Source: an uncultured Halobacteriovorax sp. (GTDB lineage: Bacteria > Bdellovibrionota > Bacteriovoracia > Bacteriovoracales > Bacteriovoracaceae). Taken from it: 64,000 nt of DNA. Below the pieces are notes generated by a model that saw only the letters and a program-made list of their open reading frames with translations, had not been told where the DNA came from and did no database searches. Shown here one piece after another: positions 17,214-42,173 of this stretch. Position 1 is the stretch's first letter; the number at the start of each line of letters is the position of its first letter. Location: contig CAJXVS010000001.1 of NCBI GenBank assembly GCA_913061265.1, positions 186,001 to 250,000 of the forward strand, written 5' to 3'. The position numbers and the translations under genes were made by a program.

Positions 17214-18707
17214 TTATTTAATTCTAAAATCTTTTCTAAGTAATTCACCGTTCTTGAAACGAATTAACGCCGTTCCATTAACTTCACCATAGCTCTTCTT
17301 AACCTTGATTTTTTCTTTAAAGTTGTTCTCACTTCTCTCAGATCGTGGTTGACCAAATCTTGAGTTATCAAAAGTATAACGAACACTTGAAATCTCATTG
17401 ATACTAAGGCTATTTTCGTCGATACTTAGGTAAGCTCTACGCTTAGTTCTCTTAACCTTTAAAGTTATTTGCTCAGTAGTATAAGTGCTTTTAGTGACAG
17501 AACCTCTAACGATTCTTTCCATATCAGCTTTCTTAGAAAGCGTTTGGTAGTGAACCATAACGGCACTTCTGAAATCATTCATATATACAAGTTGAGACTC
17601 TAGAAGCTCTTTAAGGGCAATATCTCCAGCATCAAAGCTAAACATATTTTGCTCTAAGTAAGTTCTAGTCCCAGCTAAGATCTCTTTTTCTAGTTCTAGG
17701 TACTCAAGACCATCTTCTAAAGTTTCTTTACCAATAGTTACCTGATTGATTAGATTCTCTCTCACCATGTTTCTTCTTAGGATGGCCTCATCAACTTGAG
17801 ATCCTGCGATTTGAACATTGGCCCAGTAACCAAAACCAATTCCAGAGAAGCTAAGGATAGACCAAACAGTGGACTTCTTATTCTTTCTAGCAGCTTTGAT
17901 CATGTAGTTAGCAGCAATGATTTCATATGAACGCCATAAAGAAGCGTCAACCATTTCCTGCGTTTCCATCTGGAAGTCTTCAATATTTAGCATCTCTGAT
18001 ACTGGTTGAAGAACTAGCTTCTTCCCTTGTTCAGGAGTCTTACCAAGCATTACGTTGAAGGCAGACTTTGTATAAAGGTGAAGTTGTTTGAAAGCTAGGT
18101 ACTCATCTCTAAGATCTAGGATTCTTCTGTCTAGCTTATCAACATCATCTTGATTAGCTAGTCCTGCTTCAACTTCAACTTCAGTTGCAACCATTAAGTT
18201 CTCAAGAAGTTCTAGTTCCATCTCTACAGAGACAAGAAGACCTTCTTCTTTAAGAAGTGAGTAATAAAGGTGAGCCACTTCATTTCTTAAATTCTCTTTA
18301 AGAGCGTAGAGACTAAAACGTTGAGAGTCTCTCACCGCTTTTACTGACTGAACCTGGTACCACTTACTAGGAAGGCTTGCTACAAGCTCAACTAGGATAA
18401 GTGTTCCAAAAAGTGCACTTGCACTATAACCAAAGACGATCCCTGTTCCGTAAGGAAAGAATCTCGACCTTGCTACCCAAATATCTTTTTGAGCTTGATA
18501 TAGTCTCTCGTAAGCTACTTTAAGATCAGTATTTCTATCGATCACTAATCTATTTACTTCTTTTAAATCAATTGCGTTCTCTTTCTGCTCTAGTACTTCA
18601 TCTGCCTTGTTTAAAAGGTTTAAATGAAGCCCAGTAAGCTCTGCAGTCATTGCTTGAAAAGCAAAGAGCAGCACTAGCATGGAGAATATTGTCTTTTTAA
18701 TAAACAT
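17214..18707 (-). CDS. TolC-like outer membrane protein with YEATS-like C-terminal domain
   Basis: A 497-residue protein with a signal peptide (to about residue 22) and two long helical hairpins (about 45-215 and 235-400) in the pattern of TolC/OEP channel proteins (QAQKDIWVARSRFFPYG; EAGLANQDDVDKLDRRILDL). The usual beta-barrel strands are weaker than in TolC. The last 90 residues form an extra domain: a strand, then SVRYTFDNSRFGQPR, a spacer with R/S/N, then GEVNGTALIRFKNGE. This order of motifs matches the prokaryotic YEATS domain pattern (V-x-Y-x-L, F-x-x-P-x-R, G-x-x-x-F, I-x-x-x-x-G). That assignment is inference. It is 22 bases downstream of a paralogue (18730-20163). There is no adjacent pump or adaptor gene. 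Confidence 0.72.
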   Translation of the reverse strand: MFIKKTIFSMLVLLFAFQAMTAELTGLHLNLLNKADEVLEQKENAIDLKEVNRLVIDRNTDLKVAYERLYQAQKDIWVARSRFFPYGTGIVFGYSASALFGTLILVELVASLPSKWYQVQSVKAVRDSQRFSLYALKENLRNEVAHLYYSLLKEEGLLVSVEMELELLENLMVATEVEVEAGLANQDDVDKLDRRILDLRDEYLAFKQLHLYTKSAFNVMLGKTPEQGKKLVLQPVSEMLNIEDFQMETQEMVDASLWRSYEIIAANYMIKAARKNKKSTVWSILSFSGIGFGYWANVQIAGSQVDEAILRRNMVRENLINQVTIGKETLEDGLEYLELEKEILAGTRTYLEQNMFSFDAGDIALKELLESQLVYMNDFRSAVMVHYQTLSKKADMERIVRGSVTKSTYTTEQITLKVKRTKRRAYLSIDENSLSINEISSVRYTFDNSRFGQPRSERSENNFKEKIKVKKSYGEVNGTALIRFKNGELLRKDFRIK

Positions 18708-18729
18708 AACTACCTCTTTATGGTTCTAA

Positions 18730-20163
18730 CTATCGTCTCATCTGAGTTTCGCGAGTTAAAACTTCTCCATTTAGCATTAGAATTTCAACAGTAACTGTCG
18801 TTGTACCTTTCTTCTTAACTTTAAAATACTTTGAAAAGTTTGAAGACCTATCAGTTGCACGAGATCCTTTAAAAAGGTTCGTCACTGAATACTTAACACT
18901 TACAATGTCAGCAAGAGCTTCAGCAGATCCAGTAACTGTAGCAGTTACTTTCTTGTTCTTAGCAACAGCTGAGTTCTTCATAGTAAGCTTAAGATCTAAT
19001 GAGCTATAGTCAGCATTAAGAGTGTTTAAGCTAGCATCAAACCCTAGCATTCTCTTAAGAGTGACCTTCTTAACTTCTTTTTCTGCTTCAAAAGAAAGAA
19101 GAGCTCTTTCTTCAGAAAGTAGAGTCGTTCTAGCAGAAACTAGGTCATCAAAGCTGATCTGATTTCCTTTAAAAAGGATTTCTTTCTCAGCTACGTCTTT
19201 CTTAGTTTCAAAGATGATTTCTTCTTGAATAGCGATTCTCTCATTGATGATCGCGATGTCTTTATAAGTTGCATAAACTTGATTTCTGATCTTAAGTTCA
19301 GTTCTTTTTCCCTGAAGCTCGATTACTCTTACTTTACTTTTTTCAATAGAAACTAGAGCTGGGTAATCAAATCCAATCCCTTCAAAGCTGATGAATGACC
19401 ATCTAGCTGATGCTTCCATATACTTAGCGCCTTCTCTCATGAAGAAGTTCTGAGCAAGTTCTGGTGAGTTATTAAGGGCAAGAACAGTTCCTTCTTCAAT
19501 TGAATTTGGAACCATATCAGTTGTCATCTCTGGTAGTTCGGCAAGAACATACTCTTGAGTAGGAACTCTACTTAAGGCCATGTTCATGGCGTATTTTTCG
19601 GCTCTAATGATGCTGTTAAGAGCGAATACTTGTTGCTTATGACTCTTAAGGTTCTTCTTAGCTACGAAGACTTGTCCACGAGTAGCAGCTCCAAGAGCTT
19701 CTCTAACTTCCATCGTCTTAACGATTTCAGTTAAAAGTTTAGTTTGCTCATCAGCTGATACAGCTAGTTTTTCTTGAAACTTAATCTTGATAAAACTCTT
19801 AGTAAGTCCTTCAAGGATGTTTAATCTTAAAGCTTCTGTTGCAAAAGATTCTGCTACTGCAAATTCTTGAGAGGCTTGGTACTCAAACCATTCAGAAGGA
19901 GTAGGAAGGAAAGCTTGAGCAACGCCAAGAGTAGTGTTTAGTCTTGTCATCTCAATGCTTAAACGCGGTAAGAACTGCCCAAGAGCAACTTGAACGCCCT
20001 TTTGAGCCTGGTAGTATTTTTCGTATTGAATCTTAATATCTAAGTTGTCACTTAGAACTTCTGATCGAACGTCTTCAAGCGTAAGCACATCGACTGCAAA
20101 TAGTCTAAATGACAGGGAAAAGATCCCTAAGATGAGTAATAATTTTAAGCCAGCGTTTTTCAT
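18730..20163 (-). CDS. TolC-like outer membrane protein, paralogue with YEATS-like tail
   Basis: A 477-residue paralogue of the next gene. After the signal peptide (about 1-23) come two helical hairpins of OEP type (YQAQKGVQVALGQFLPR near 47; REALGAATRGQVFVAKKNL near 155). The shared LPT/SxW-x-x-QA segment near 85 marks the two as recent relatives. The C-terminal 80 residues again hold the extra beta domain (SVKYSVTNLFKGSRATDR, then GTTTVTVEILMLNGE), equivalent to that of the paralogue. A GGGAGAA ribosome binding site precedes the ATG. It is likely the first gene of a three-gene transcript with 17214-18707 and 15916-17184. The export partner and substrate are unknown. Confidence 0.72.
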   Translation of the reverse strand: MKNAGLKLLLILGIFSLSFRLFAVDVLTLEDVRSEVLSDNLDIKIQYEKYYQAQKGVQVALGQFLPRLSIEMTRLNTTLGVAQAFLPTPSEWFEYQASQEFAVAESFATEALRLNILEGLTKSFIKIKFQEKLAVSADEQTKLLTEIVKTMEVREALGAATRGQVFVAKKNLKSHKQQVFALNSIIRAEKYAMNMALSRVPTQEYVLAELPEMTTDMVPNSIEEGTVLALNNSPELAQNFFMREGAKYMEASARWSFISFEGIGFDYPALVSIEKSKVRVIELQGKRTELKIRNQVYATYKDIAIINERIAIQEEIIFETKKDVAEKEILFKGNQISFDDLVSARTTLLSEERALLSFEAEKEVKKVTLKRMLGFDASLNTLNADYSSLDLKLTMKNSAVAKNKKVTATVTGSAEALADIVSVKYSVTNLFKGSRATDRSSNFSKYFKVKKKGTTTVTVEILMLNGEVLTRETQMRR

Positions 20164-29756: not shown

Positions 29757-29941
29757 TTCTCAAACTATCGCATTGCGTCGCTTATTCATAGGGCCCTTGT
29801 ATTAATTACACGAATTTAGCTCGCCATGACCCGATTTCACCACATAATTTCGACTACTTAAACACATCTCTAACGGTTTGTCATTTAGGATGCGCCATGT
29901 TTTCATTTATCTTAAATTAATTGATTTTATCTGGAGAAAGA

Positions 29942-30442
29942 ATGAAGGGATTATTCTTTTTAGTAGCACTACTAACGTCTATAAACCTTTTCGCTATTGA
30001 TATTGAAATGGTGAGGATCTCTTCAGATATGCCTGGAGAAGAAGATGAGATCTTCCGTATGGTGGTTGAAGTAAAAGAGGATATGGAGATCGTCGGTTTC
30101 CATAAAGACAAGCTAGGCCCCTCTGGAGAAGTCGAAAATAGACTTACCTACGCCCTTGAAGATATGGAAGGCGGCTTTGTTATGGAGCACCAAGAGGGCC
30201 GAGATATTATTATTCTCTCCAGTTATAACTTTGATAGCTTTGTGGGCGGCGAACTTAAGATTGCTTATCTCTTCAATGGACTCAAAGGAAAATGGCGCTC
30301 TAAGAAGATCTTTCTTAGGTATATGAGTGGCAAATGGCGCCTACAAACTGATGATATTGAGATTGTGACTAAGATGAAGATCATCGTTCGTAAATGGGTA
30401 GGTAAAGTTGTTGGTATCAAAGATATCGAGTTATCTAAATAA
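29942..30442 (+). CDS. Small secreted protein of unknown function
   Basis: A 166-residue protein with a signal peptide to about residue 18 (LLTSINLFA). The mature sequence alternates acidic beta-like strands (IEMVRISSDMPGEEDEIFRMVVEVKEDME) with an aromatic, Lys-rich end. The start is ATG 29942 with GGAGAAAG 2-9 bases upstream; the longer frame from 29921 would place the ribosome binding site inside the gene. No family is recognised. It converges with the VTC gene at 30445, with a 2-base gap and no terminator. Its role is unknown; a link to the VTC operon is not supported beyond adjacency. Confidence 0.75.
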   Translation: MKGLFFLVALLTSINLFAIDIEMVRISSDMPGEEDEIFRMVVEVKEDMEIVGFHKDKLGPSGEVENRLTYALEDMEGGFVMEHQEGRDIIILSSYNFDSFVGGELKIAYLFNGLKGKWRSKKIFLRYMSGKWRLQTDDIEIVTKMKIIVRKWVGKVVGIKDIELSK

Positions 30443-30444
30443 GA

Positions 30445-31239
30445 TTATTTTCCAAAGTGCGGTGAGATATTATCTAATTTTGGAGCGTAGTAGTCAGGAA
30501 TCACTTCATTCACACCAGTCATATACTTAGAGAAACTCGTTCTCTCTAAGTTAAAGTATCCTATTAAATCGATCATCCACATGGGCATCCTAGAAGTACA
30601 CTTAAGTTCCAGAATAATATTCGCCCCTTCTCTATAATTTGTTTCAAAGTCATAAGCAGACATCTGTCCCTCTACAGGAGTTAGGTCATAATGCTCTTTT
30701 CTCATATAGCGGAGCTGCTTATCAAAGGTCACTCTTGCATAATCATCATAAACAGAAAGATAGGCCTTTCTTTTGTATTGGGTATAAACCTTAGGCCCAG
30801 CATTATAGGCCTGCACTAGGCGTAGAAAAGTATTCTTATAATCACTATTGAGCCCCTCCCCTTCGAATGTAGGATCCACAATACCATTAAGCTCATCGGC
30901 CCAGTTATCTCCCGAGACCTTGGCCCTTTTCTTTTTAATAAAACCACGGGACTTAAACTTAACTTCAAAGAAGTAAGGAGGAACAGGATTCTCTCCATAA
31001 GAGCGTATACGCAGGTTGAACCTATCATCCATACCGGCCTTTCTTCTTTCTAAGAAAAGGTAGTTTGGTGAATCAAGGTAGAGGTTGTTTACGCCATAGT
31101 ACTTATCAGGAGAGCGGTCACTATAAGGATCAAGCACACAGTAGGTCTCAGCGTACTGAGAAATAGGCTCAATCATCGATTCAGGGATTAGATACTTTAA
31201 CTCATATCTTTCAAAGAATAAGGGCGAGCTCGCTTCCAT
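30445..31239 (-). CDS. VTC-domain protein (polyphosphate-polymerase-like), cytoplasmic
   Basis: A 264-residue VTC-domain protein without signal peptide or membrane segment, so it should act in the cytoplasm. Yeast Vtc4 uses this tunnel-shaped fold to build polyphosphate from ATP. The conserved framework is present: RYELKY (R11, K15), NNLYLD near 51-56, RFNLRIRSY (R73, R77, R79), FFEVKFKSRG (E92, K94) and the late metal-binding strand LELK (E211). It is therefore probably catalytically competent, although product and activity are inference. It is last in the operon DUF4956 - HlyD-propeller - TolC-like - VTC, 3 bases after the preceding stop. Bacterial VTC genes often neighbour DUF4956 and CotH-kinase genes; here kinase-like giants are adjacent instead. 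Confidence 0.87.
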   Translation of the reverse strand: MEASSPLFFERYELKYLIPESMIEPISQYAETYCVLDPYSDRSPDKYYGVNNLYLDSPNYLFLERRKAGMDDRFNLRIRSYGENPVPPYFFEVKFKSRGFIKKKRAKVSGDNWADELNGIVDPTFEGEGLNSDYKNTFLRLVQAYNAGPKVYTQYKRKAYLSVYDDYARVTFDKQLRYMRKEHYDLTPVEGQMSAYDFETNYREGANIILELKCTSRMPMWMIDLIGYFNLERTSFSKYMTGVNEVIPDYYAPKLDNISPHFGK

Positions 31240-31242
31240 TTC

Positions 31243-32442
31243 TTAGTTGGCCTTCGTTAAGTGCGATAAGCTACACTCAGCTAACTTTCCTTGCTCGGCC
31301 AATGAATAGAGATAGTCCTTCGTGATTTCATAACGTAGGTCTAAGATCTTAATCTTTTGTTTTAAGATCTTCTCTCTAACTTGAACAATCTTATAAGGTG
31401 AGTTTGAACTAGATTTCTTTAAGAGTTCTAGGTAATTATTAAGGTCTTTTAAGTAACCTTCAGAGTTCAAATCAATATAGTTCTTAATCTTAATATTTAA
31501 ATTGGCCTTATTGAGATTTAAATCAGTAGCCCCTTCTCTTCTAGCAGCGCTAAACTCTGCCTGAGACTTCTGCCATTCAATCAACTTTCCTTGAGAGTTT
31601 GAATAAGAATTCCCTGGAAGATTAAAAGAAACTTCAATACTAAAGCTATCATCAGCAATATTGTTTTTAATTGCGTCGTCTTTTTCAAAGATGGTCTTCT
31701 TATGACTTAGTTGAAAGTGGCTAAAGATCTGAGATTCTTTTCTTCTCTCCGCTAAGTAATCAAGGTGCTTAATACGGGCTACAGCCCCAAGCTTTGAGAG
31801 CTCAATATTTTCCATCTTAATCGTTGTGATCTTTCTTTTAATATCGTCGACATCAATAAAGCCGCTAAAATCTAGTGAACCGATCTTTCTTGGCTTTAGA
31901 TTACGAGGCAGGTCTAACTGAGCTAATTGAGAGCGTGATCTTAAAACAAGCTCATTAAACTTAAGCTTTGTTTCAACTAGCTTCTCTTTCATATTAAGAA
32001 GCTCATTAAATTTAAGGATATCTCTTTTAACCCCGCGGTTAAGGACTCGAGTTAAATCTGTATAAGAGAGTTTTAGTTGATGATGTAGCTTGATTGAGTC
32101 TTTAGCATAGAAGAGCTCAAGAAAGGTTAGGTTCTTATCTAAACATTTCTCAGCATTCACTTCCGAAGAGTAGGCAGATCCAAGCTTATTTCTTTGCTCG
32201 ATCAATTCTACTTCATGCGCTTTTTGCCCAATGGCAAGAGGCTCGATTCTAATCGTATTAGTGACGGCTCCGTCATTATCGCCCTTAAGACGCCATTGAA
32301 GAGAGTTATAAGATGGTGCTTTGTAGTCTCTCGACTCCGTCGGTTTAACTTCGACATCGATTTCTTTATAAATCGTCTTAAAGTTAATTGCCGCTGAGGC
32401 ATCCGTCGAAAAGATAAATAGGCCTATTAAGTAAACGATCAT
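31243..32442 (-). CDS. TolC-like outer membrane/periplasmic coiled-coil protein
   Basis: A 399-residue protein with a signal peptide (to about residue 18, TDASA) and long Lys/Glu/Leu-rich helices at about 75-175, 200-235 and 290-385. SIEVSFNLPGNSYSNSQGKL near 265 resembles the beta strand and turn that separates the two helical hairpins of TolC/OEP proteins. It lies directly between the HlyD-type adaptor and the VTC protein, 3-base gaps each side, which supports an outer-membrane channel role. The sequence is divergent and the TolC assignment rests on architecture plus context. No adjacent ABC or RND pump is seen. Confidence 0.68.
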   Translation of the reverse strand: MIVYLIGLFIFSTDASAAINFKTIYKEIDVEVKPTESRDYKAPSYNSLQWRLKGDNDGAVTNTIRIEPLAIGQKAHEVELIEQRNKLGSAYSSEVNAEKCLDKNLTFLELFYAKDSIKLHHQLKLSYTDLTRVLNRGVKRDILKFNELLNMKEKLVETKLKFNELVLRSRSQLAQLDLPRNLKPRKIGSLDFSGFIDVDDIKRKITTIKMENIELSKLGAVARIKHLDYLAERRKESQIFSHFQLSHKKTIFEKDDAIKNNIADDSFSIEVSFNLPGNSYSNSQGKLIEWQKSQAEFSAARREGATDLNLNKANLNIKIKNYIDLNSEGYLKDLNNYLELLKKSSSNSPYKIVQVREKILKQKIKILDLRYEITKDYLYSLAEQGKLAECSLSHLTKAN

Positions 32443-32445
32443 TTC

Positions 32446-34218
32446 TTAAAGCTTATCTGTTACAAGTATTTGGGCCGTCTTTTTGCCTTGATCAAAAGAG
32501 ATGATGAAGTTCTTAGTCTGTGAATTAAAAGTAATCCCTTCAGGTTTAAGCCCTCTAAAAGTCTTAACTTCTTGAAGGTGATTAGAAGGATCTTCAAGAA
32601 CAGTCTTTAAAACTCTTCCGCCTTCTTTACCATTATTGTTAACGGTAAGAACATAAAGCTCACCATCAATCATGGCCATGTCTGAGACACCTTCATTCTT
32701 AAAGAAGTGATCTCTAGGAAAAGCGCTATTGGCCTGTATTGAAACTTGGTCTGCTTGAATCTTCTCTGTTTCAAGAACTGAATCAAGGTCGTTGATTCTG
32801 ATAAGAACAAATTGATCCTTAAGCTTTGAGCTTGCACTACGAAGACCAAAGAAAAGAGTGTTCCCTTTAACAATGATCCCTTCGATATTGATCTTAACCT
32901 TTGATTTTGAAGGATTAAGTAAGATCTGTGCCCAGTCTTCTTTTTGATTCTTTAAAGCTACTTTATTAAGAGCATCATAAAGATTGATATCAGCAACTGC
33001 TGTAAACTCAAAATTACTTCTCTTCACCTTCAGAAAACGCTTTCTTCTCTTAGATACTTTTCCGTCTTTTTTCTCAGACATTGATGAAGCGATATAGATA
33101 AAACCATTTTCATCTTGAGTGATCGCTTCCATATCAGCGATCCCCTTAACTCCAGCGATCTCGATTTCTTTATCGATTTCACCTTTATTATTCATTGTAT
33201 AAATATAAGGACGGTCTTTCTTTCCTGTATCATCGCTTATGACAAGAGTTTGATTTAGGTCTTTAATAAAAAGTAGTCCTGAAGGCTCAATGTTTACATT
33301 TTCAATATCAACATCAATGCTTAGGTCAAAGTAGTTCTCAGTATTTGGTGAAGGAACGGTATCAGCATGAGCGGCCATAATGCTTTTTGATGATTTTTCA
33401 AATGACTTGATCTGAACCTTCTCACCGATAAGAAAAGGATTATCTTCAGAAACGAAGATCACAACTTCTCTACCATAAGCGATAATATTTTCAGACTTTC
33501 TTAGTCTTACTGGGTACTCAATGATTCTGTTCCCAACACTGGCAACAACCGCGTTCATCGTCTTTGTTCCATCAGAGATAGAAGTCACGACAACTTTTTG
33601 TCCCTTAAATGTCTTATTATAGATGCTTTCGTGAACAAAACCTTTAATAAGTGAAGGTGAACTATCATGCATTGTAATAAGAGGAGTAAAAGGAGAAGCG
33701 TCTTCGCCTACTTTTACATTAACTGAACCAATAACACCGGCTCTCTTAGAGAAAACAAAAAGATCACTCTTCTTACGGTTAAGTAGCTCAAGCTGCTTAG
33801 CAATGCTATCGATCTTGATCTGAAGAGGACTGTTCTGTCCTGTTCCTGATTTAACTTTAACGCTCTTAAGCTTCTTGTTCATCTCTTCGTTAAAAGAGTT
33901 CTCGGCCTTAAGCTCGTTTAGTTGACTCTCTAATTCATAGATACTCATCTCAAGATCTGGTCTTTCAAGTTCAAGAAGAAGTTCATTCTCAGCAATCGTT
34001 TGCCCTGAGATGACGTGAATATTTTTAATCTTCACAGCATGCGAAGAATTAATATTGATCTCTTTAGTATCAGCAATACCTAAGTATTGAGTTGAGACAA
34101 CATTTGATGATTGAATTTTTAAGATAGCAATTAAACAAACAAGAATAGCAGCTGAGAAACGCTTGTTCTCTGTGATTGCCTTAATGAAAATTGTCTTTTG
34201 CCTAGCTAATTTTCCCAT
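32446..34218 (-). CDS. HlyD-type membrane fusion protein fused to a beta-propeller (DUF3616-like)
   Basis: A 590-residue fusion. A short cytoplasmic start and one membrane helix (about 19-37) are followed by an HlyD-like adaptor: barrel-sandwich half IHVISGQTIAENELLLELE, a coiled coil (about 85-150), then RAGVIGSVNVKVGE and a beta-barrel up to about 275. From about 290 to the end a beta-propeller-like domain appears, with LFIKDLNQTLVISDD, DMEAITQDENGFIYIASS, NIEGIIVKGNTLFFGLR and LKPEGITFNSQ repeats. The NIEG and GLR blocks resemble DUF3616 and SdiA-regulated/esterase-like propellers. Start ATG 34218 is preferred over GTG 34227 because AGGTGG is properly spaced. The adaptor should link inner and outer membrane in the export system; the propeller's job is unknown. 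Confidence 0.8.
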   Translation of the reverse strand: MGKLARQKTIFIKAITENKRFSAAILVCLIAILKIQSSNVVSTQYLGIADTKEININSSHAVKIKNIHVISGQTIAENELLLELERPDLEMSIYELESQLNELKAENSFNEEMNKKLKSVKVKSGTGQNSPLQIKIDSIAKQLELLNRKKSDLFVFSKRAGVIGSVNVKVGEDASPFTPLITMHDSSPSLIKGFVHESIYNKTFKGQKVVVTSISDGTKTMNAVVASVGNRIIEYPVRLRKSENIIAYGREVVIFVSEDNPFLIGEKVQIKSFEKSSKSIMAAHADTVPSPNTENYFDLSIDVDIENVNIEPSGLLFIKDLNQTLVISDDTGKKDRPYIYTMNNKGEIDKEIEIAGVKGIADMEAITQDENGFIYIASSMSEKKDGKVSKRRKRFLKVKRSNFEFTAVADINLYDALNKVALKNQKEDWAQILLNPSKSKVKINIEGIIVKGNTLFFGLRSASSKLKDQFVLIRINDLDSVLETEKIQADQVSIQANSAFPRDHFFKNEGVSDMAMIDGELYVLTVNNNGKEGGRVLKTVLEDPSNHLQEVKTFRGLKPEGITFNSQTKNFIISFDQGKKTAQILVTDKL

Positions 34219-34230
34219 ATTTCCCACCTA

Positions 34231-34914
34231 TTAAATTTCAACTGTTGATTCTTGCAACAGCAAACTTAAACCTTTTATTGTTTCGATTTCCCTAAGATGA
34301 TCAATGAACTCCGCTTTATCCTGTCCCTTGTTCAGCTTAATCTGGTATGCATAATCTAATCTTGTCCCCTGAGCCACTTCTCTTAAAGTAACTAAGGCAA
34401 AATATTTGCATTCATCTTTAAGTATTTTTTGAAGCTTATTCTTATCCGTATCATTGCTTTCCATGTTGAACTTTAAAAGCCCATCAAAGTGAGACTCCTT
34501 TGAAAAAGGAACTGATTGAATAGCAAAAGCTGTAGCTGAAAAAGCAAAAGCCCCAATCACTGCGATTTGGTAACTATAAACACCACAGGCCATGCCAATT
34601 GATAAAGTTGAAAAGATAAAGATCATATCTCGCGGATCTTTTAGAGAAGATCTAAATCTAATGATCGCTAGAGCCCCCATCATTCCCATACCACGAGCAA
34701 CGTTGTCACCAATGGCCTGCATAGCAAGAGCGGTTACCAGTGAACTTAAGATCATAGCTTGTAAGAAGCTTCTCGAATAAGAGAGACCTTGAAAGGTCTT
34801 TTTATAAGTAAAAGCAATAACGCAAGACAATAAAAAACTAAGGCATACTGAATATAGTACGGACAAAGTCGTTGGATTTTTTACGGTCGCCTCTAGTGCG
34901 AAAATATCTAACAT
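34231..34914 (-). CDS. DUF4956 inner-membrane protein
   Basis: A 227-residue protein with four to five membrane helices (about 16-145) followed by a cytoplasmic alpha/beta domain of about 75 residues. The signature GMMGALAIIRFRSSLKDPRDMIFIF is split across helices near 79-102 and is the hallmark of DUF4956. This family commonly sits beside VTC-domain genes, and a role in channelling or sensing the polymer is often suggested but not shown. Start ATG 34914 has AAGG 6 bases upstream; the earlier ATG 34959 would add 15 residues with poor support. It is the first gene of the four-gene operon, with 142 bases upstream before the giant secreted paralogue. Confidence 0.88.
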   Translation of the reverse strand: MLDIFALEATVKNPTTLSVLYSVCLSFLLSCVIAFTYKKTFQGLSYSRSFLQAMILSSLVTALAMQAIGDNVARGMGMMGALAIIRFRSSLKDPRDMIFIFSTLSIGMACGVYSYQIAVIGAFAFSATAFAIQSVPFSKESHFDGLLKFNMESNDTDKNKLQKILKDECKYFALVTLREVAQGTRLDYAYQIKLNKGQDKAEFIDHLREIETIKGLSLLLQESTVEI

Positions 34915-35056
34915 ATCTACCTTCTGTTTGAGCCATATACTTATCACGAAAAGTGTCATTTCCTAACACTTGTCTAACAATCGGGTAAAGGTTTTATGGC
35001 ATTAAATTTAGAAAAATGGCCCCTTAAGTTCCTGAAAACATAAGAGGCTTCGTAGA

Positions 35057-38000
35057 TTAATGAAGAAAATGCATTTTATATAGGTCTAGTGCGTCAGAAA
35101 TGTTAAGGAGAACCCTATCTTTTTCAACATAGTCCTTCTTAGTGCCTTGCGTAAAATAAGGTTTCATCCTCGCCGGAAGCTTATTTTCAAGTTCACGGAC
35201 AGTTGGGATATTCATCTCAGCCACCATATAGAAGTTCTTCTTCCCGATGGCCTTATTGAAGGCCCTAATAAGGACAGGACTGTAGTAGCCGCTCTTATTA
35301 GGCACAAGATGACTTAAGGCCTTAGTAAGCTTCTCCATCTTCTTCTTACGAGAATCCTCTCTCTTGGCCTTTCTGATATGCCTTAAGACTTTCTTAGCCC
35401 CTCTAACGATGGAGCTTATAGAGTATTTCTCTCCAAAGTAGTTGATAACCTTAGATCTTCTATTGCTATTATTAGCGCTAGTAGAAACTGATGAGCTCTT
35501 CCAAGCTTTTGTAACGTCTTTAGAAGTGCTCTTGGTGATCTTAGCGATCTCTTTAATAAGATCATCCTCGGTAAGCTCAAGAAGCTTCTCAATACCTTTA
35601 CGGTGAATCTGAAGAGTTAAAAGAAACTCTATCTGTCCCCATGAATCTGTATAGATCATCATCTCTGGGCTAAAATCAAAGAACTTATCAGAACCTGCCG
35701 CTCCATTGAAAAAAGGAAGGTAAGTATTCTTAATCTCTTTAGTCTCAGTTAAGAGATCATCCACTCCCACCTGAAGCTCAACATAAGGATTCACAAGCTC
35801 CCCTGTTTCAGCGTCATATGAAGAGTCTAATTGAACATCCTTAAACTTAGTTTCCCCATTAGAAACAAAGCTCCAGCGCTTCTCTTTACGAAGCTTTGAG
35901 CTCATCTGAAGATCCTGGCCAATAATCTTACCGTCTTCGTCAAAATTAAAGATTTTCAAATCATCAATACGAAGTTCCTTAGACCAGCTACGAAAACCAA
36001 AGAGGCTCACCGCTGATTCTTTGGCGATAAAGTCTGAAGTGATCTTCTGATCAACCTTAAACTTCTTTAACTTATCAAAGTTGTGGTTAAAGACAGCATC
36101 ATTGATGGCCCTTTCCATGTCTTCACTTTCAGTATTACCTTTTAACTTAGTCACAAATCTTTCGATCTTTCCTATTTCAGTACTTGAAGAGAATTGATCA
36201 ATCTTTATAAGACCAAGCTGCATATAAAGACGCATCTTCTTCTCATTTGACTTAGATTTATCTTCATAAAGAGTAATATTTCCGTCTTTATCATGACCTA
36301 GAACAGTTCTATTTAAGAGGATTCTAGAGACTGAGGCTTCAGTTCCAGGACCAACTACTGATGCTCCTAAAACGGCTTTGATTCTTCCTCTGCCCTCAAT
36401 AATATTCTGAGAGATAAAGATATGCTCTTTAGGTAGACCCTTCTTTAAAATTGTATAAGGCATCTTAAAATCTACGATGAACTTCTTCCTTTTTCTCACT
36501 TCTTCTTTACTAGCAGCAGGGTAGATAAGTGAATATTCTTTAACGTAAGCTAGGTCCCCTACTGTCTCAATACCAAGACCAAGGCCCTTACCAAGCCTAA
36601 TTCCAATGGAGAAATCATCTCTAACGATAAACTGATCATTCTCCCCTTTGGCATCGGGGTTCGCTGTAAAGGTTCTGTTAACATGAGTTAGGACTTCAGT
36701 GACGACGCCACCAGAGTCAATCCCAAACCAGACAGGGTTAACGCTAATCTTTTGAATACCAACGATAATAGCTTTAGCGCCCATAACGATCATATCGTTT
36801 AAGGCCTCAAGGGGAGCACTGACAAACATCATCCTGATTTCCTTACGAAAATCAACGGTCTCCCCTGGTAAGTAATCATTAGTTGGTTTTGCTTCTTTTT
36901 CAATTCCTTTATTAAAAGAGATAAGTTCGATCTTTTTCCCATTAGGAAGAACTTCTCCTAAAAGGCCAAAGTTAACCACCATATCATTTCTTCTAGAAAT
37001 CAATTTCTCAATAAGGAGCTGCTCGTAATTATAAGGAGCGACTCTTGGCCACTTACCTAGTTTAACAGCAGCCGTGATCTGAGCTCGGCTAAGTTGAGCG
37101 ATCTTTCTTGTGAACCATTTTCCATCACTCATTGTGACATGATCCCAACCAGCGTGAAGAACGGCAGATCTAAAGTTAAAGACTATCTCATCTTTCTTAT
37201 TCTTATGAATCGCCTTCCATTTATAATCAGTTGGCTTCTCTCTTCTCCAATTACCAAAAGCAAAACCAATATCATGTTGAAGAGCAAATAGTTTTGATCC
37301 GCCTTCAAAGTCACGTCTAATAAGCTTGTTGTTTTCACCTTTTTTCAGGTTGGTATTATTGATCCAGATATTAAAGATCTGCCAGCCTCTTACTTCCCTT
37401 TTACCTTTCTTATGGGCAGGGTAATAAGGTCCAACTCTAGTGATACTCTTATCGTCAAAACGAGCTTCTAGCATTCCCTCTTCAAAGATTATGAATTCAC
37501 CCTTTTCATCAGATCCTCTGCTCTTCACTAACCTCTTAAGATCTTCAGGCTCAAAGTAAGAAGTAAAATCAACATAGAATTCATCCCAAGAGACTTTACC
37601 TAGGTAGATCTTAAAATCATCCACATGCCTAGAGAGATCCGTGTACATCCCAAGAGCCGTTCCAAGAGCGGCAGCCGTTGGTTCAGAGTGAATCTCCATT
37701 CCCATCTTAAGCTTCCACTCACGAACATTTCCGTCCTTGTCAATTCCCTCAAACATGATCTTTGGTCTTGATTGAGTCTTTCTAATCTTTACGAACTTTC
37801 CTTCATTTAAGGCAGGCCAAGAAACCTTTAGACCAGCATGAAGCGCTTCTCTTCCATTATAGAAAGTATCAGTCACATCAACAGATCCAATATCAGCCAC
37901 TTCGCCGATAACACCATTATTAGGAAGTGGGTTCAGAAGAGATAGGTCAAAGCCAGCCTTCTTCATCTTTTTAAGTTCTTCTTGAGATAAGACCTTACCA

Positions 38001-38509
38001 GTTTCAGGGTGCACAAGATTTGAGGCCTCTCCATAAGGAGATCTGTCATCTTTATAGATCTTATATAGACTTAGGAACTGATTAAAGGATTCAAGCTTAC
38101 TCATCACTGAATTTACAGGCGTGATCTCTGATAAAAGAGCTACGTCTTGATCAAGCATAAACTCAGCCACCTGATATTGCTCAAACTTAGTTGACAGAGC
38201 TTTCATGCTATCAGCTAGTGGAAGTAAGCTTCTAAGACCAACAACTGTATCGTCTTTATTGGCCTTCTTCTTTGCTTTTTTCTTAGAGTCGCCTTTATCA
38301 TTGATTCTATAGTTATAGATTATATTAAAGAGCTGATCCGCCCTTTTAGAGATCTGTCCTTTATAGGCCTCGATCTTAGTCTCGCTAAGAACGCCTCCTT
38401 CATAAAAGGTCTTCTCTATCTTCGCCTTATAGTCTTTACCAAAAGGTAAGTTCTCACTAGCAAAGGCCGTTGAACCAAGCACTAAGCAAACCAGTAAAAT
38501 AAGCTTCAT
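35057..38509 (-). CDS. Giant secreted protein with kinase-like motifs, variant catalytic loop
   Basis: A 1150-residue protein with a signal peptide (cleavage near AFASE). Residues about 45-150 are Lys-rich and helical. A kinase-like pattern follows: a basic strand with EWKLKMG near 264-270 and an acidic helix EIHSEPTAAALG near 272, then a loop NNTN-x7-NK (385-395) and HDIGFAFG (412-419). This order is reminiscent of the catalytic N-x-D...N and D-x-G motifs of HipA/CotH/Fam20C-like kinases. The key Asp of the paralogue (NTD) is Asn here (NTN), so this copy may be inactive. From 500 onward no domain is recognised; beta-rich repeats with GxGLGxE occur near 640. It is divergent from its paralogue (38702) and follows the VTC operon on the same strand. 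The kinase call is inference. Confidence 0.7.
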   Translation of the reverse strand: MKLILLVCLVLGSTAFASENLPFGKDYKAKIEKTFYEGGVLSETKIEAYKGQISKRADQLFNIIYNYRINDKGDSKKKAKKKANKDDTVVGLRSLLPLADSMKALSTKFEQYQVAEFMLDQDVALLSEITPVNSVMSKLESFNQFLSLYKIYKDDRSPYGEASNLVHPETGKVLSQEELKKMKKAGFDLSLLNPLPNNGVIGEVADIGSVDVTDTFYNGREALHAGLKVSWPALNEGKFVKIRKTQSRPKIMFEGIDKDGNVREWKLKMGMEIHSEPTAAALGTALGMYTDLSRHVDDFKIYLGKVSWDEFYVDFTSYFEPEDLKRLVKSRGSDEKGEFIIFEEGMLEARFDDKSITRVGPYYPAHKKGKREVRGWQIFNIWINNTNLKKGENNKLIRRDFEGGSKLFALQHDIGFAFGNWRREKPTDYKWKAIHKNKKDEIVFNFRSAVLHAGWDHVTMSDGKWFTRKIAQLSRAQITAAVKLGKWPRVAPYNYEQLLIEKLISRRNDMVVNFGLLGEVLPNGKKIELISFNKGIEKEAKPTNDYLPGETVDFRKEIRMMFVSAPLEALNDMIVMGAKAIIVGIQKISVNPVWFGIDSGGVVTEVLTHVNRTFTANPDAKGENDQFIVRDDFSIGIRLGKGLGLGIETVGDLAYVKEYSLIYPAASKEEVRKRKKFIVDFKMPYTILKKGLPKEHIFISQNIIEGRGRIKAVLGASVVGPGTEASVSRILLNRTVLGHDKDGNITLYEDKSKSNEKKMRLYMQLGLIKIDQFSSSTEIGKIERFVTKLKGNTESEDMERAINDAVFNHNFDKLKKFKVDQKITSDFIAKESAVSLFGFRSWSKELRIDDLKIFNFDEDGKIIGQDLQMSSKLRKEKRWSFVSNGETKFKDVQLDSSYDAETGELVNPYVELQVGVDDLLTETKEIKNTYLPFFNGAAGSDKFFDFSPEMMIYTDSWGQIEFLLTLQIHRKGIEKLLELTEDDLIKEIAKITKSTSKDVTKAWKSSSVSTSANNSNRRSKVINYFGEKYSISSIVRGAKKVLRHIRKAKREDSRKKKMEKLTKALSHLVPNKSGYYSPVLIRAFNKAIGKKNFYMVAEMNIPTVRELENKLPARMKPYFTQGTKKDYVEKDRVLLNISDALDLYKMHFLH

Positions 38510-38701
38510 TTTTGCTCCCCAAAAAATTTCATCTAAGGATCGGACATTATCAAAAACTGACTATATAGATAGGACAGTGAAAACTTTATACTTACGGCCT
38601 AAGTACTAGGATTCTAATGATTTAAGACCCTATCCAATTTATCGCTGTAATAACTACACAAACTCTATGAATAATTTTGAGCTCTGGTACTTTGCTCTCA
38701 C

Positions 38702-41700
38702 ATGAAAAACATAAACAACTTGATTATTCTTTTAGGATTTCTCCTCTCTGTGCAAGCTTGGGGTTTTTCTTCAATATCTAACTCTACTGGTGAAGTCTCG
38801 AGAATCAATAAGATCTTCTTCGATGCTGATAATTCTTTAGACTCAGAGAAGGTCGCTGTTTACCGCGCCAAGATTAAGAATATGAGAGATGAGATCTATG
38901 ACATCTCATATAACGAAAGAGTTAAAAGAAAGGGGCAATCTAAAAAGAAGGCCCGTAAAAAGGCTCTAGAAGACGTGGCGAACTATGATCTTCTTGTTGG
39001 AATGATTGATAGCTTAAAAGAAGTTAAAGGCTATGCCTCACAAATAGAGTACTTACAATCAATTGAATCAATTTCTTATGCCCTTCTTAAAGAAGGAAAC
39101 CCTCTTTTTATTGCTGACGTTTTAGAAGCAGCAAGAGGTCTTCTTAAGAAATACGCCGTACAAATCACAAACTTACCTCTAGGAGAAGCTAAGAACTTAG
39201 TCGCTCCTTCAGGTTCAAAGGTCTTTTATCAACAAAGTGAACTTGAAGAGCTAAAGAAAGCTTCTAAAGATATATCTTTGTTAGAGCCACCCATTAACTC
39301 TCCTTTTATCTTTCAACGTGAAGATATCTCTAAGGTTGATGTTAAAGATTCTTATCTTGGCGGAAAAAATAAGCTTTATGAAGGTCTCGATGTTTGGTGG
39401 CCAGCGACTAATGTCTTCAAGTTCAAAAAGATTAAGAAGACTCAATCAAAACCTAAGTTAGATGTTCTTTATGTTAATCCTAAGACCGGAAAAGAAGAGG
39501 TCTTTAAGATTAAGCTTGCTGAAGAGATTCATTCTGAAGGAACCGTTGCGGCCCTGGCCAATACAATAGGGATCTATACAGATCTTTCTAAGAACCTTCG
39601 AGATATCAAGGTTCATCTTGGAGAGACATCTTATAACGAGTTTAGAAATGATTGGTATTCATACTTTGATGGCTTTGATCTTGACCGATTGGTTAAAGAG
39701 AAAGGATCTGACGAAAATGGTGATTACCTTATCTTTTATGATGGGCTGATTGAGCAAAAATTAAAAGAAGAAGATTCTTATAAGAGAATTGGTCCTTGGG
39801 CCTGGGGTGGAAATGATCATAAGCACCTCCGTGAGGCGAGAGGGCTTTTCCTTTTCAGTGTTTGGATTGGTAACACGGATTTAAAAGAAGCAGAGAATAA
39901 TAAGTTAATCGTTAGAACGAAGAAGGACTCAATTGAAACCTTTAAGGTCATGCATGATATCGGATTCTCTCTTGGAAACCTTCTTAGTGAAAAGCCGCTT
40001 AACCTAAAGTGGAACCCAATTAAAAAGATTAAAAAAGATGAGATCGTTTTTGATTTTCTAAATATTCAAGATAATTCTGGCTATGAGCATGTAACTTACT
40101 CAGATGCTAAATGGATGATTAGAAAGATCGCTCAACTAACTCGTAAGCAAATCGAGGCTTCAGTCGATATTGGCGGATGGCCTAAGACTGAGCCTTATAA
40201 TATCCACCGTCTTTTAGTAGAAAAGCTTATTTCAAGAAGAAATCACTTTGTTAAGACCTTTGGTCTTATTGGAGAAGTTCTTCCTAATGGAAAGACTATT
40301 GAGTGGATGGAGTTTACGAAAAAAGATATTGAAGATGTTCCAGAGTATATTGGTGAATACACTGTAGATTTTAGCCGTGAGATTAAGGCGCTTGTTCGCG
40401 ATCCTTTTAGGGAAATCCCTCATATGATCGTCAATCTTATGAAGGTTGGTGTTAGCGCTATTCAAAAGTTTGAGATCGATCCCCTTGAATTGGGTCTTGA
40501 TGCTGGCGTCATCTCTCAGATCATTGTTAGTGTTACAAGAGAGATCATTAGAAACCCTAATCCAAAACATGAAGATGAAACCTTTCTTATTAAAGATAAG
40601 TTTCTTATAGGAACAAGACTTGGAGCTGGTTATGTCGTCTCTGGCGATGTCGCTAAATACAGAGAGTACAATTTAATCCGTACTGCTAGAACTGAACATG
40701 ATGCTAAATACAAAGATAACTTCTTCTTAAACCTAAGGCTTCCTTTTCAAGTAATGTTAAAGAAGCTACCAAAGTCGCATATACTCTCTATTGCTGATTA
40801 TTTTGAAACTAGAGGTAGAGTAAAGCTACAAACTCCAGGGGCGACCCTTATTGGTCTTGGAACTGAAGGCACTATCTCTAAGTTAAGTCTTGGTAGAACA
40901 ATCATCTCAAAGAATGAGTCAAAGGATTTAATCTTCTACGAAGATAAGTCTAACTTTAATAAACTAGCATGGAGGGCCTTTGTCACTGCTGGTCTTCTCA
41001 AGATTCCTTTTTCGACTCTTAATGTCTCTAAAGGAAAGATCAACCGTGAGATCTATACTGTCTCAACTGATAAGTTACTTGATCCAGCCGCCATTGCAGC
41101 CGTTAAGGCCGTTATTGATAATCAAGATCATGAACAGATTAAAAAGATTGCTACTCCGACAAAACTCTCTAGTGATTTTGTAGAGAAGAACTTTAAGCTT
41201 AATGTTTTAGGCTTTATCGGAAAGACTTCTTACACAAGAAGAGACTATGTAACAAACTATGGAACGACTGCTTCTACTGAAGATGATACTACCATCTTTC
41301 AAATGGAAAGAGTGAAGGGATCATTTTGGTATTCAATGCTAGGGTCTAGAGTCTTCGAAGAATTCTCACAGATTGTTACTGAAAAAGATAATCAAGGTAA
41401 CGTAACTGAAAGCGTTCTAAAACTAAACTATCTTCATGATGATGACAGAGTTACAAATAAAGACCTTAAAAATGTTTACTTAAATTTTCTCAACGCTGTT
41501 GGTAAAAATGGTGAGATGATCAACTTTACTCCTGAAGAGCATACTTCTAACGGAGAATGGGGACATCTTGATATTAGGCTTAGCTTAGATATTTATAAGA
41601 CTGGTCTTGATAAGATAGCTACTTTAAAACTTAGCACTCTTATGAAAGCCGCGACTAAGATCACGGGGGACAGTTACCCTAAATTAGTTGGTCTTTATAA

Positions 41701-42142
41701 AAGCCTTATGCGTGCAACTCACTCAAATAGAAATACAGTGATCAAGAACCCAAGGTTTAGCTATAGAGGAAAGAAGTATTACTATAAGAATCTCTTTAGA
41801 GACCTAAAGAAGTTTGCCCTTAGAATCAATAAGATAAATAAAACGGCTAAGGATGAAGAAGAAGTTTCAGCAGGAATCCTGAATGCTTTTTATAAAGGTG
41901 TTAAGAAAAAAGAAGGCAGCTATAGCCCACTTATCTTAAGAGCCATTATTGAAGATCTTAAGAAAGAAGATTACTTCCTCGAAGTTACCTTTGTTCCTCA
42001 TGCAGGCTCAGAGAATAAGCTTCCTGAAAGAGTAATTCCTTATAATAACGAGGGGCAAAAGCGCGAAGTTAAGTCTTTTGATTTTCTAACCAGCATGGAT
42101 GACACTCTTAACGTCTTCGAACATTTTTCAAATCTTAGATAA
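38702..42142 (+). CDS. Giant secreted paralogue with complete kinase-like loop
   Basis: A 1146-residue paralogue of the divergent 35057-38509 gene, co-linear over almost its full length. It has a signal peptide (cleavage near AWGFS), a Lys-rich helical N-terminus and the block EIHSEGTVAALANTIG near 275. The catalytic-loop-like WIGNTDLKEAENNK (389-401) retains Asp393 and Asn399/Asn400, followed by HDIGFSLG (418-425) in the place of the DxG metal motif. Both paralogues share KLISRRN and GEVLPNGK segments near 490-520. If the kinase reading is correct this would be the active member and would work outside the cytoplasm. Start: ATG 38702 without an obvious ribosome binding site. An intrinsic terminator follows. 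The family is not one I can name. Confidence 0.7.
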   Translation: MKNINNLIILLGFLLSVQAWGFSSISNSTGEVSRINKIFFDADNSLDSEKVAVYRAKIKNMRDEIYDISYNERVKRKGQSKKKARKKALEDVANYDLLVGMIDSLKEVKGYASQIEYLQSIESISYALLKEGNPLFIADVLEAARGLLKKYAVQITNLPLGEAKNLVAPSGSKVFYQQSELEELKKASKDISLLEPPINSPFIFQREDISKVDVKDSYLGGKNKLYEGLDVWWPATNVFKFKKIKKTQSKPKLDVLYVNPKTGKEEVFKIKLAEEIHSEGTVAALANTIGIYTDLSKNLRDIKVHLGETSYNEFRNDWYSYFDGFDLDRLVKEKGSDENGDYLIFYDGLIEQKLKEEDSYKRIGPWAWGGNDHKHLREARGLFLFSVWIGNTDLKEAENNKLIVRTKKDSIETFKVMHDIGFSLGNLLSEKPLNLKWNPIKKIKKDEIVFDFLNIQDNSGYEHVTYSDAKWMIRKIAQLTRKQIEASVDIGGWPKTEPYNIHRLLVEKLISRRNHFVKTFGLIGEVLPNGKTIEWMEFTKKDIEDVPEYIGEYTVDFSREIKALVRDPFREIPHMIVNLMKVGVSAIQKFEIDPLELGLDAGVISQIIVSVTREIIRNPNPKHEDETFLIKDKFLIGTRLGAGYVVSGDVAKYREYNLIRTARTEHDAKYKDNFFLNLRLPFQVMLKKLPKSHILSIADYFETRGRVKLQTPGATLIGLGTEGTISKLSLGRTIISKNESKDLIFYEDKSNFNKLAWRAFVTAGLLKIPFSTLNVSKGKINREIYTVSTDKLLDPAAIAAVKAVIDNQDHEQIKKIATPTKLSSDFVEKNFKLNVLGFIGKTSYTRRDYVTNYGTTASTEDDTTIFQMERVKGSFWYSMLGSRVFEEFSQIVTEKDNQGNVTESVLKLNYLHDDDRVTNKDLKNVYLNFLNAVGKNGEMINFTPEEHTSNGEWGHLDIRLSLDIYKTGLDKIATLKLSTLMKAATKITGDSYPKLVGLYKSLMRATHSNRNTVIKNPRFSYRGKKYYYKNLFRDLKKFALRINKINKTAKDEEEVSAGILNAFYKGVKKKEGSYSPLILRAIIEDLKKEDYFLEVTFVPHAGSENKLPERVIPYNNEGQKREVKSFDFLTSMDDTLNVFEHFSNLR

Positions 42143-42144
42143 AA

Positions 42145-42173
42145 AAAGGCTCCTATAAAGGAGCCTTTCTTTT
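42145..42173. terminator. Bidirectional intrinsic terminator
   Basis: GGCTCC (42148-42153) pairs with GGAGCC (42160-42165) around a 6-base loop, extended by A:T pairs. A run of A precedes it and a run of T follows, so it can end both the giant-paralogue gene on the plus strand and ndk on the minus strand. Confidence 0.9.

Follow-up and report, generated by a model that had tools for sequence, protein, structure and literature searches.

A VTC-DUF4956 operon with a HlyD-type adaptor and a TolC-fold channel: a candidate pump-less polymer secretion system

Introduction

Some diderm bacteria are known to carry polyphosphate on their surface, as in the gonococcal pseudo-capsule, but the genes for its export across the outer membrane are not known; on this point PMC10237660 goes no further than to allow for a part played by additional gene products. 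How a polymer made in the cytoplasm might cross both membranes is the question raised by a compact operon of an uncultured Halobacteriovorax sp., a predator-type bacterium. The operon lies in a 64,000-nucleotide stretch of contig CAJXVS010000001.1 (positions 186,001 to 250,000), hereafter the window, and encodes a VTC polymerase-like enzyme, a DUF4956 partner, a periplasmic adaptor and a TolC-type channel. An earlier note on this DNA had proposed that these four genes could synthesize and export polyphosphate or a similar polymer and that two adjacent kinase-like giants may use or attach the product, and we reproduced the coordinates, strands and sizes of all its genes. We suggest that the operon may encode a pump-less trans-envelope polymer secretion machine, a reading that we hold to be evenly poised between right and wrong.

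Parts of the operon

The four genes run on the minus strand from 34959 to 30445 with gaps of 3 bases, matching the same-strand run with short gaps described previously:

34231..34959, minus strand: DUF4956 inner-membrane protein, 242 amino acids, MgtC-like (Pfam PF16316, E=3e-13)
32446..34227, minus strand: HlyD-type periplasmic adaptor with a predicted C-terminal beta-propeller, 593 amino acids (Pfam, RND_mfp, hydropathy and alignments)
33373..34110, minus strand: adaptor core, a barrel-sandwich with a short hairpin, about residues 40-285
32446..33315, minus strand: putative phytase-like propeller domain of the adaptor, about residues 305-593, with acidic repeats EPSG, DMEA, EG and PEGI
31243..32442, minus strand: predicted TolC-fold outer-membrane channel (OEP), 399 amino acids, with a signal peptide (AlphaFold, Foldseek and VIA-align)
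30445..31239, minus strand: VTC-domain polymerase, 264 amino acids, soluble (Pfam PF09359, E=5e-43)

The VTC assignment is secure by Pfam (147.8 bits against a curated cut-off of 23), and no transmembrane segment is found by hydropathy. A phmmer search of the Protein Data Bank (PDB) with the single sequence gave no useful match; a profile of 15 bacterial homologues matches the yeast Vtc4 structure 3g3q at E=8e-17. The motifs ERYELK, RIRSYG, FEVKFK, KKRAKV, YKRKAY, RVTFD, LELKC and FSKY are all present, and K15, R77, R79, E92, K94, K103, R157, R169, D173, E211, K213 and K238 are invariant across the 15 sequences. Alignment to 3g3q together with these invariant columns places the Vtc4 catalytic set (Arg-x-Arg, Glu-x-Lys, Lys/Arg) in the protein, so the catalytic residues that the earlier note had read as intact are all there. 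We take the Arg-x-Arg and LE-x-K motifs to hold the equivalents of R264, R266 and E426 of yeast Vtc4. These three residues were mutated in yeast to inactivate the enzyme (PMC9911596). PPK1 and PPK2 were not found in the genome at the thresholds used, which leaves VTC as its only recognized candidate polyphosphate polymerase. Judging from these sequence features, the product may be polyphosphate made from ATP.

DUF4956 scores 50.3 bits against a cut-off of 30.6 for PF16316, with a weak MgtC match as well, and hydropathy predicts four transmembrane segments. Strong conservation marks a segment, GALAIIRFR..KDPRD, that forms a basic loop in which R101, R103 and D111 are invariant across 20 sequences. 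The C-terminal tail of a streptococcal homologue is stated to be cytosolic (PMC12345266); if the tail lies there in this protein too, so does the basic loop, on the VTC side. Such a position fits capture of a polyanion without proving it.

Identification of the adaptor likewise agrees with the earlier note: Pfam recognizes HlyD_D23 (E=7e-7, covering residues 51-232) and HlyD_3 (E=1e-4, above its cut-off), and RND_mfp matches at 1e-8. A single N-terminal transmembrane segment is predicted at residues 26-44 by hydropathy, and G75, G174, E175, H199, E200, G252 and R253 of the core are invariant. The single adaptor sequence found no useful match in the PDB by phmmer. What had been missed is the C-terminal domain, which resembles phytase-like propellers and matches PF13449 at E=3e-4 (21.2 bits, below the curated cut-off of 27.6). 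In 15 aligned propellers, D37, D70, E72, E154 and E268 are invariant and fall within the repeated acidic motifs, and the domain may thus bind or hydrolyze phosphate chains in a metal-dependent manner. Relatives of the propeller that are free-standing, unfused to HlyD, also occur (L059 5169-6107; others, e.g., in G136 and G163).

Sequence methods were almost silent on the channel. The window protein has no significant Pfam match and none to PF02321, although its Desulfonema homologue reaches PF02321 at E=0.0087; a sequence search of the PDB returned nothing significant, and the channel profile aligns weakly with OEPs of the same genome (hhalign probability 23.5%). The predicted fold alone settled its identity. 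An AlphaFold2 model built from 38 homologues has TolC topology with a predicted local distance difference test (pLDDT) score of 89.6, matches TolC by Foldseek (E=2e-11, probability 1.00) and aligns with it by VIA-align at Z 21.4 over 376 of 399 residues. In the VIA-align comparison every TolC-family structure scores higher than the best unrelated fold (Z 8.9). The product of 31243-32442 is, on this model, a TolC-fold OEP; the earlier note had called it TolC-like while allowing that structure prediction might show otherwise. Two further TolC-family (OEP) genes lie in tandem at 17214-20163 of the window (497 and 477 amino acids, with extra C-terminal stretches) and are not close relatives of the operon channel.

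Conservation of the four-gene set

Is the juxtaposition of these genes a peculiarity of one genome? Among 129 genomes of its own order, the set is found in the window genome and eight others, in one of which it is split over two contigs. We then took the VTC subfamily as the sole seed for a scan of about 85,000 species genomes and counted the gene content of the resulting 80 loci by a six-frame profile scan. HlyD is present in 75 of the 80 loci, DUF4956 in 73, and all four genes share one short stretch in 56. Four of the five loci without a nearby HlyD (L088, L111, L114 and L145) have VTC near a contig end, and in the fifth, L154, about 2.5 kb separates VTC and the channel from the end of its stretch. 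The propeller is found in 47 of the 80 loci, mostly fused to the adaptor, and is not essential, since some loci (L093, L096, L108 and L113) lack it.

Going by record titles, at least eight phyla are represented: Bdellovibrionota, Thermodesulfobacteriota, Fibrobacterota, Delongiibacteriota, Pseudomonadota, Myxococcota, Verrucomicrobiota and Lentisphaerota. They include cultured strains of Desulfonema, Desulfoluna and Bdellovibrio. The neighborhood search in Bdellovibrionota that the earlier note had recommended thus finds the set, which is by no means confined to that phylum. Three gene orders occur (DUF4956-HlyD-OEP-VTC, HlyD-OEP-VTC-DUF4956 and VTC-DUF4956-HlyD-OEP), with a median spacing of -1 base. 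The co-occurrence of the genes in VTC-seeded loci is far beyond chance, and their being rearranged yet kept together is strong evidence of a joint function.

A phylogeny of 97 VTC sequences places all 62 with a linked adaptor inside one group of 69 (support 97/94), and the adaptor label changes 8 times on the tree, compared with 28.9 in shuffles. Most of the seven exceptions within the group are contig ends or misses in calling open reading frames. The deep order of the VTC clades is unsure, with long branches among the others. Relatives that keep VTC and DUF4956 without adaptor and channel, which the earlier note had named as evidence against its proposal, occur in other VTC clades only, where, within the same family, the two adjoin mostly CotH, or beta-helix proteins; the clade of the window essentially always keeps the adaptor. 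Presence of the adaptor in a single VTC clade, and not in its sister clades, indicates that the link between adaptor and VTC is specific. The lack of adaptor and channel in those clades could also be read to mean that VTC merely supplies energy or a phosphate donor in the cytosol and lies beside an ordinary efflux system fortuitously or for regulation. Conservation of the operon over eight phyla with rearranged gene order leaves this explanation, already disfavored, very improbable.

Neighboring genes and the missing pump

The window operon contains no ABC, RND or MFS pump gene. Nor does any ABC, RND, MFS or glycosyltransferase gene recur among 90 operon neighbors, judged by the 25 commonest of 143 families; an ABC protein adjoins the cassette in one locus, L123. 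The absence of a linked pump asserted in the earlier note therefore extends well beyond the window, and the idea of the adaptor as an ordinary RND partner was dropped as the leading one because no pump is linked.

Genes that do recur among the 90 neighbors include two-component genes (5 response regulators and 4 kinases) and lamin-tail domain (LTD) proteins. The former bear on a regulatory explanation, in which VTC and DUF4956 form an MgtC-like sensor or regulator with an ACT-type tail, and intracellular polyphosphate, produced as required, governs an adaptor-channel exporter of some other cargo, driven by an unlinked pump. A relative of DUF4956, MgtC, is a regulator of phosphate metabolism (discussed in PMC12345266). 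However, no pump gene recurs, the four genes stay together through three orders, and a pure regulator needs no invariant adaptor, yet the adaptor is found in 75 of the 80 loci. We regard regulation as unlikely.

About 20 of the 80 loci have a CotH gene beside the four-gene set, often with lamin-tail domains, and beta-helix surface proteins also adjoin cassettes. Together with the location of the Gram-positive VTC-DUF4956-CotH trio among pel genes, these neighbors speak for a different product: another anionic polymer, or short phosphate chains placed on a surface protein or polysaccharide, so that the cassette would serve for phosphate decoration, as a module akin to the pel accessory genes of streptococci. 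The VTC active-site residues agree with a polyphosphate enzyme, however, and the 25 commonest of the 143 neighbor families include no glycosyltransferase; decoration seems to us a doubtful account of the cassette. In Desulfonema magnum (L094 4130-6535), a fusion of a CotH kinase, a lamin-tail domain and a dockerin-like stretch lies directly upstream of the cassette. Rumen and gut loci of the UBP6 type (L114-L137 group) encode a conserved protein of 303-321 amino acids with no Pfam match, which follows DUF4956 in 11 loci.

Kinase-like giants beside the operon

Two large paralogous proteins are encoded next to the four genes, and two minor features complete the region:

35057..38509, minus strand: giant A, secreted, 1150 amino acids, with a kinase-like domain and a beta-barrel-like C-terminal half
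36950..37861, minus strand: region of giant A with a kinase-like fold, residues 217-520
35204..36706, minus strand: predicted outer-membrane-type beta-barrel of giant A, residues 602-1102, at low model confidence
38702..42142, plus strand: giant B, 1146 amino acids, a divergent paralogue 35% identical to giant A
42145..42168, plus strand: strong terminator-like hairpin after giant B, with a 10-pair stem and 5 G-C pairs, a consensus match only
29921..30442, plus strand: small protein, hydrophobic at its N-terminus, whose gene converges on VTC

The two giants had been described as divergent, which holds for giant B. Giant A lies on the same strand as DUF4956, 97 bases upstream of it, and for these reasons probably opens an operon of five genes, with giant A-DUF4956-adaptor-channel-VTC as the likely transcription unit. 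A giant lies beside the four-gene set in 6 of the 8 other genomes of the order. The protein at 29921..30442 matched no Pfam or NCBIfam family, and both genus relatives (L049 and L050) have an open reading frame of 166 amino acids at the equivalent position.

AlphaFold modeled giant A weakly as a whole (mean pLDDT 63.8) but fairly well at about residues 160-520; block values in the barrel region are mostly 30-80. Foldseek with the full-length model found nothing in the PDB under E=0.001. By VIA-align, the kinase region matches CtkA (Z 11.8), Fam20C (11.6), actin-fragmin kinase (10.6), PI4K (10.3) and CotH 5jd9 (10.2), and residues 602-1102 match OmpG (11.5) and CymA (11.0); scores of Z 10-12 point to a common arrangement, not a function, and for the barrel they draw on residues modeled with low confidence. 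Giant B has the kinase residue set (beta3 Lys, alphaC Glu, catalytic Asp and metal-binding Asp), keeping the catalytic Asp (IGNTDLKEAENN) and an HDIG metal-binding motif. Across the family the motif N-x-D...D-[IVLM]-G is conserved, and the catalytic Asp is retained in giant B and nearly all other members; in giant A and its two genus orthologues an Asn (N387) replaces it. The giants look like Fam20/CotH/CtkA-fold kinase-like proteins fused to a predicted outer-membrane-type beta-barrel. The earlier description of secreted kinase-like giants was therefore apt as to the kinase-like folds and overlooked the barrel. An identification of the giants as CotH by sequence was rejected (hhalign of giant against CotH, 0.1%), and the genome has no CotH (PF08757).

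The giant family is not confined to the operon locus, as three further members occur elsewhere in the genome, not beside VTC (L211 in G000:C8, L212 in G000:C5 and L213 in G000:C9). The distant copy L213 aligns poorly at the catalytic-Asp position. At L076 (10348-11856) and L077 (13287-14807), a DUF4956/VTC operon includes a gene for a protein of 500 amino acids that is related to the kinase part of the giants and lacks the barrel half. The operon has genes for UbiA-like membrane proteins as well, and for a protein (L077 12412-13293) that by eye resembles a second CYTH/TTM-type protein.

Discussion

We infer the product, route, energetics and accessory roles of the proposed machine as follows. 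Cytosolic VTC would polymerize the phosphate of ATP into polyphosphate, and oligomeric DUF4956, its basic loop in the cytosol, would thread the growing chain through the inner membrane. A precedent is yeast VTC, in which polyphosphate synthesis is coupled to membrane translocation (PMC9911596). The HlyD-type adaptor would span the periplasm to the TolC-type channel, and the polymer would leave the cell with its own synthesis as the driving force. At the periplasmic port, the phytase-like propeller may bind, gate or trim the chain. A secreted surface kinase might then use or anchor the product; here this would be the outer-membrane-anchored giants, and in other phyla CotH.

Several observations weigh against this mechanism. 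DUF4956 is not known as a pore-forming protein, and an unlinked pump could partner the adaptor. Other diderm loci hold VTC, DUF4956 and CotH without adaptor or channel, so these two are not always needed. Conversely, L052 (G026:C8, 6967-10717) is a DUF4956-HlyD-propeller-OEP operon with no adjacent VTC; the two VTCs of the G026 genome belong to other clades and are located elsewhere. Finally, deletion of the streptococcal DUF4956 and CotH homologues affects the Pel polysaccharide (PMC12345266), and the product may accordingly do no more than modify some other polymer.

Each part is already known singly, as is the principle of synthase-driven polymer secretion. In synthase-dependent exopolysaccharide secretion (e.g., alginate, by Alg8/Alg44/AlgE), the polymerase itself propels what it makes across the inner membrane with no separate pump. 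The operon would resemble such systems in its self-driving polymerase, adaptor-like periplasmic part, outer-membrane channel and lack of a separate pump; it differs in having a phosphate polymerase instead of a glycosyltransferase and a TolC-fold channel instead of a porin-type barrel. With the eukaryotic VTC complex (Vtc1/3/4) it shares the VTC (TTM) domain, the catalytic residues, a separate small transmembrane partner and the model of coupled synthesis and translocation. Unlike that complex, it has no SPX domain, its transmembrane partner is DUF4956 and not the VTC transmembrane domain, and it adds an adaptor, a predicted propeller and an outer-membrane channel in a diderm envelope instead of a vacuole. 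The HlyD/TolC tripartite exporters of type I secretion and RND efflux have the same adaptor family and channel fold, whereas the operon lacks a linked ABC, RND or MFS pump, fuses its adaptor to a predicted propeller and has DUF4956 in the inner-membrane place.

The closest genetic parallel is the Gram-positive pel cluster, in which CotH, polyphosphate polymerase and DUF4956 are accessory genes without adaptor or channel (PMC7112168, PMC12345266). The likeness lies in the grouping of a VTC-type polymerase, a DUF4956/MgtC-ACT protein and a secreted CotH kinase; the pel trio differs in belonging to a single membrane, lacking a HlyD adaptor and an OEP, and being tied to Pel. The absence of adaptor and channel there is expected if the two serve the outer membrane. 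A 2025 paper reports no such trio synteny outside pel (PMC12345266). Our literature search, which excluded most subscription journals and all bioRxiv preprints, led only to the pel context, to C. perfringens and to incidental mentions. Within that literature there appears to be no description of the combination or its breadth, of the fusion of adaptor and propeller, or of kinase-like giants with a barrel anchor; the earlier note had supposed as much of the system.

A more far-reaching proposal is that this is a widespread polyphosphate secretion system in which a VTC-DUF4956 synthase-translocase takes the place of the pump in a HlyD-TolC tripartite exporter and the exported polyphosphate feeds, or is fixed by, secreted kinases. 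The giants would then be a new outer-membrane-anchored Fam20-like class, an active member paired with an Asn variant, with polyphosphate as phosphate donor for an ATP-poor surface. We offer this fuller version tentatively and think it rather less than probable.

The four-gene set nevertheless provides a concrete, testable candidate for polyphosphate secretion by diderms. If the proposed mechanism is true, VTC-coupled translocation would extend from eukaryotic vacuoles to bacterial envelopes, and a pump-less class of tripartite exporter would be defined. It would also suggest a source of phosphate for extracellular kinases where ATP is scarce.

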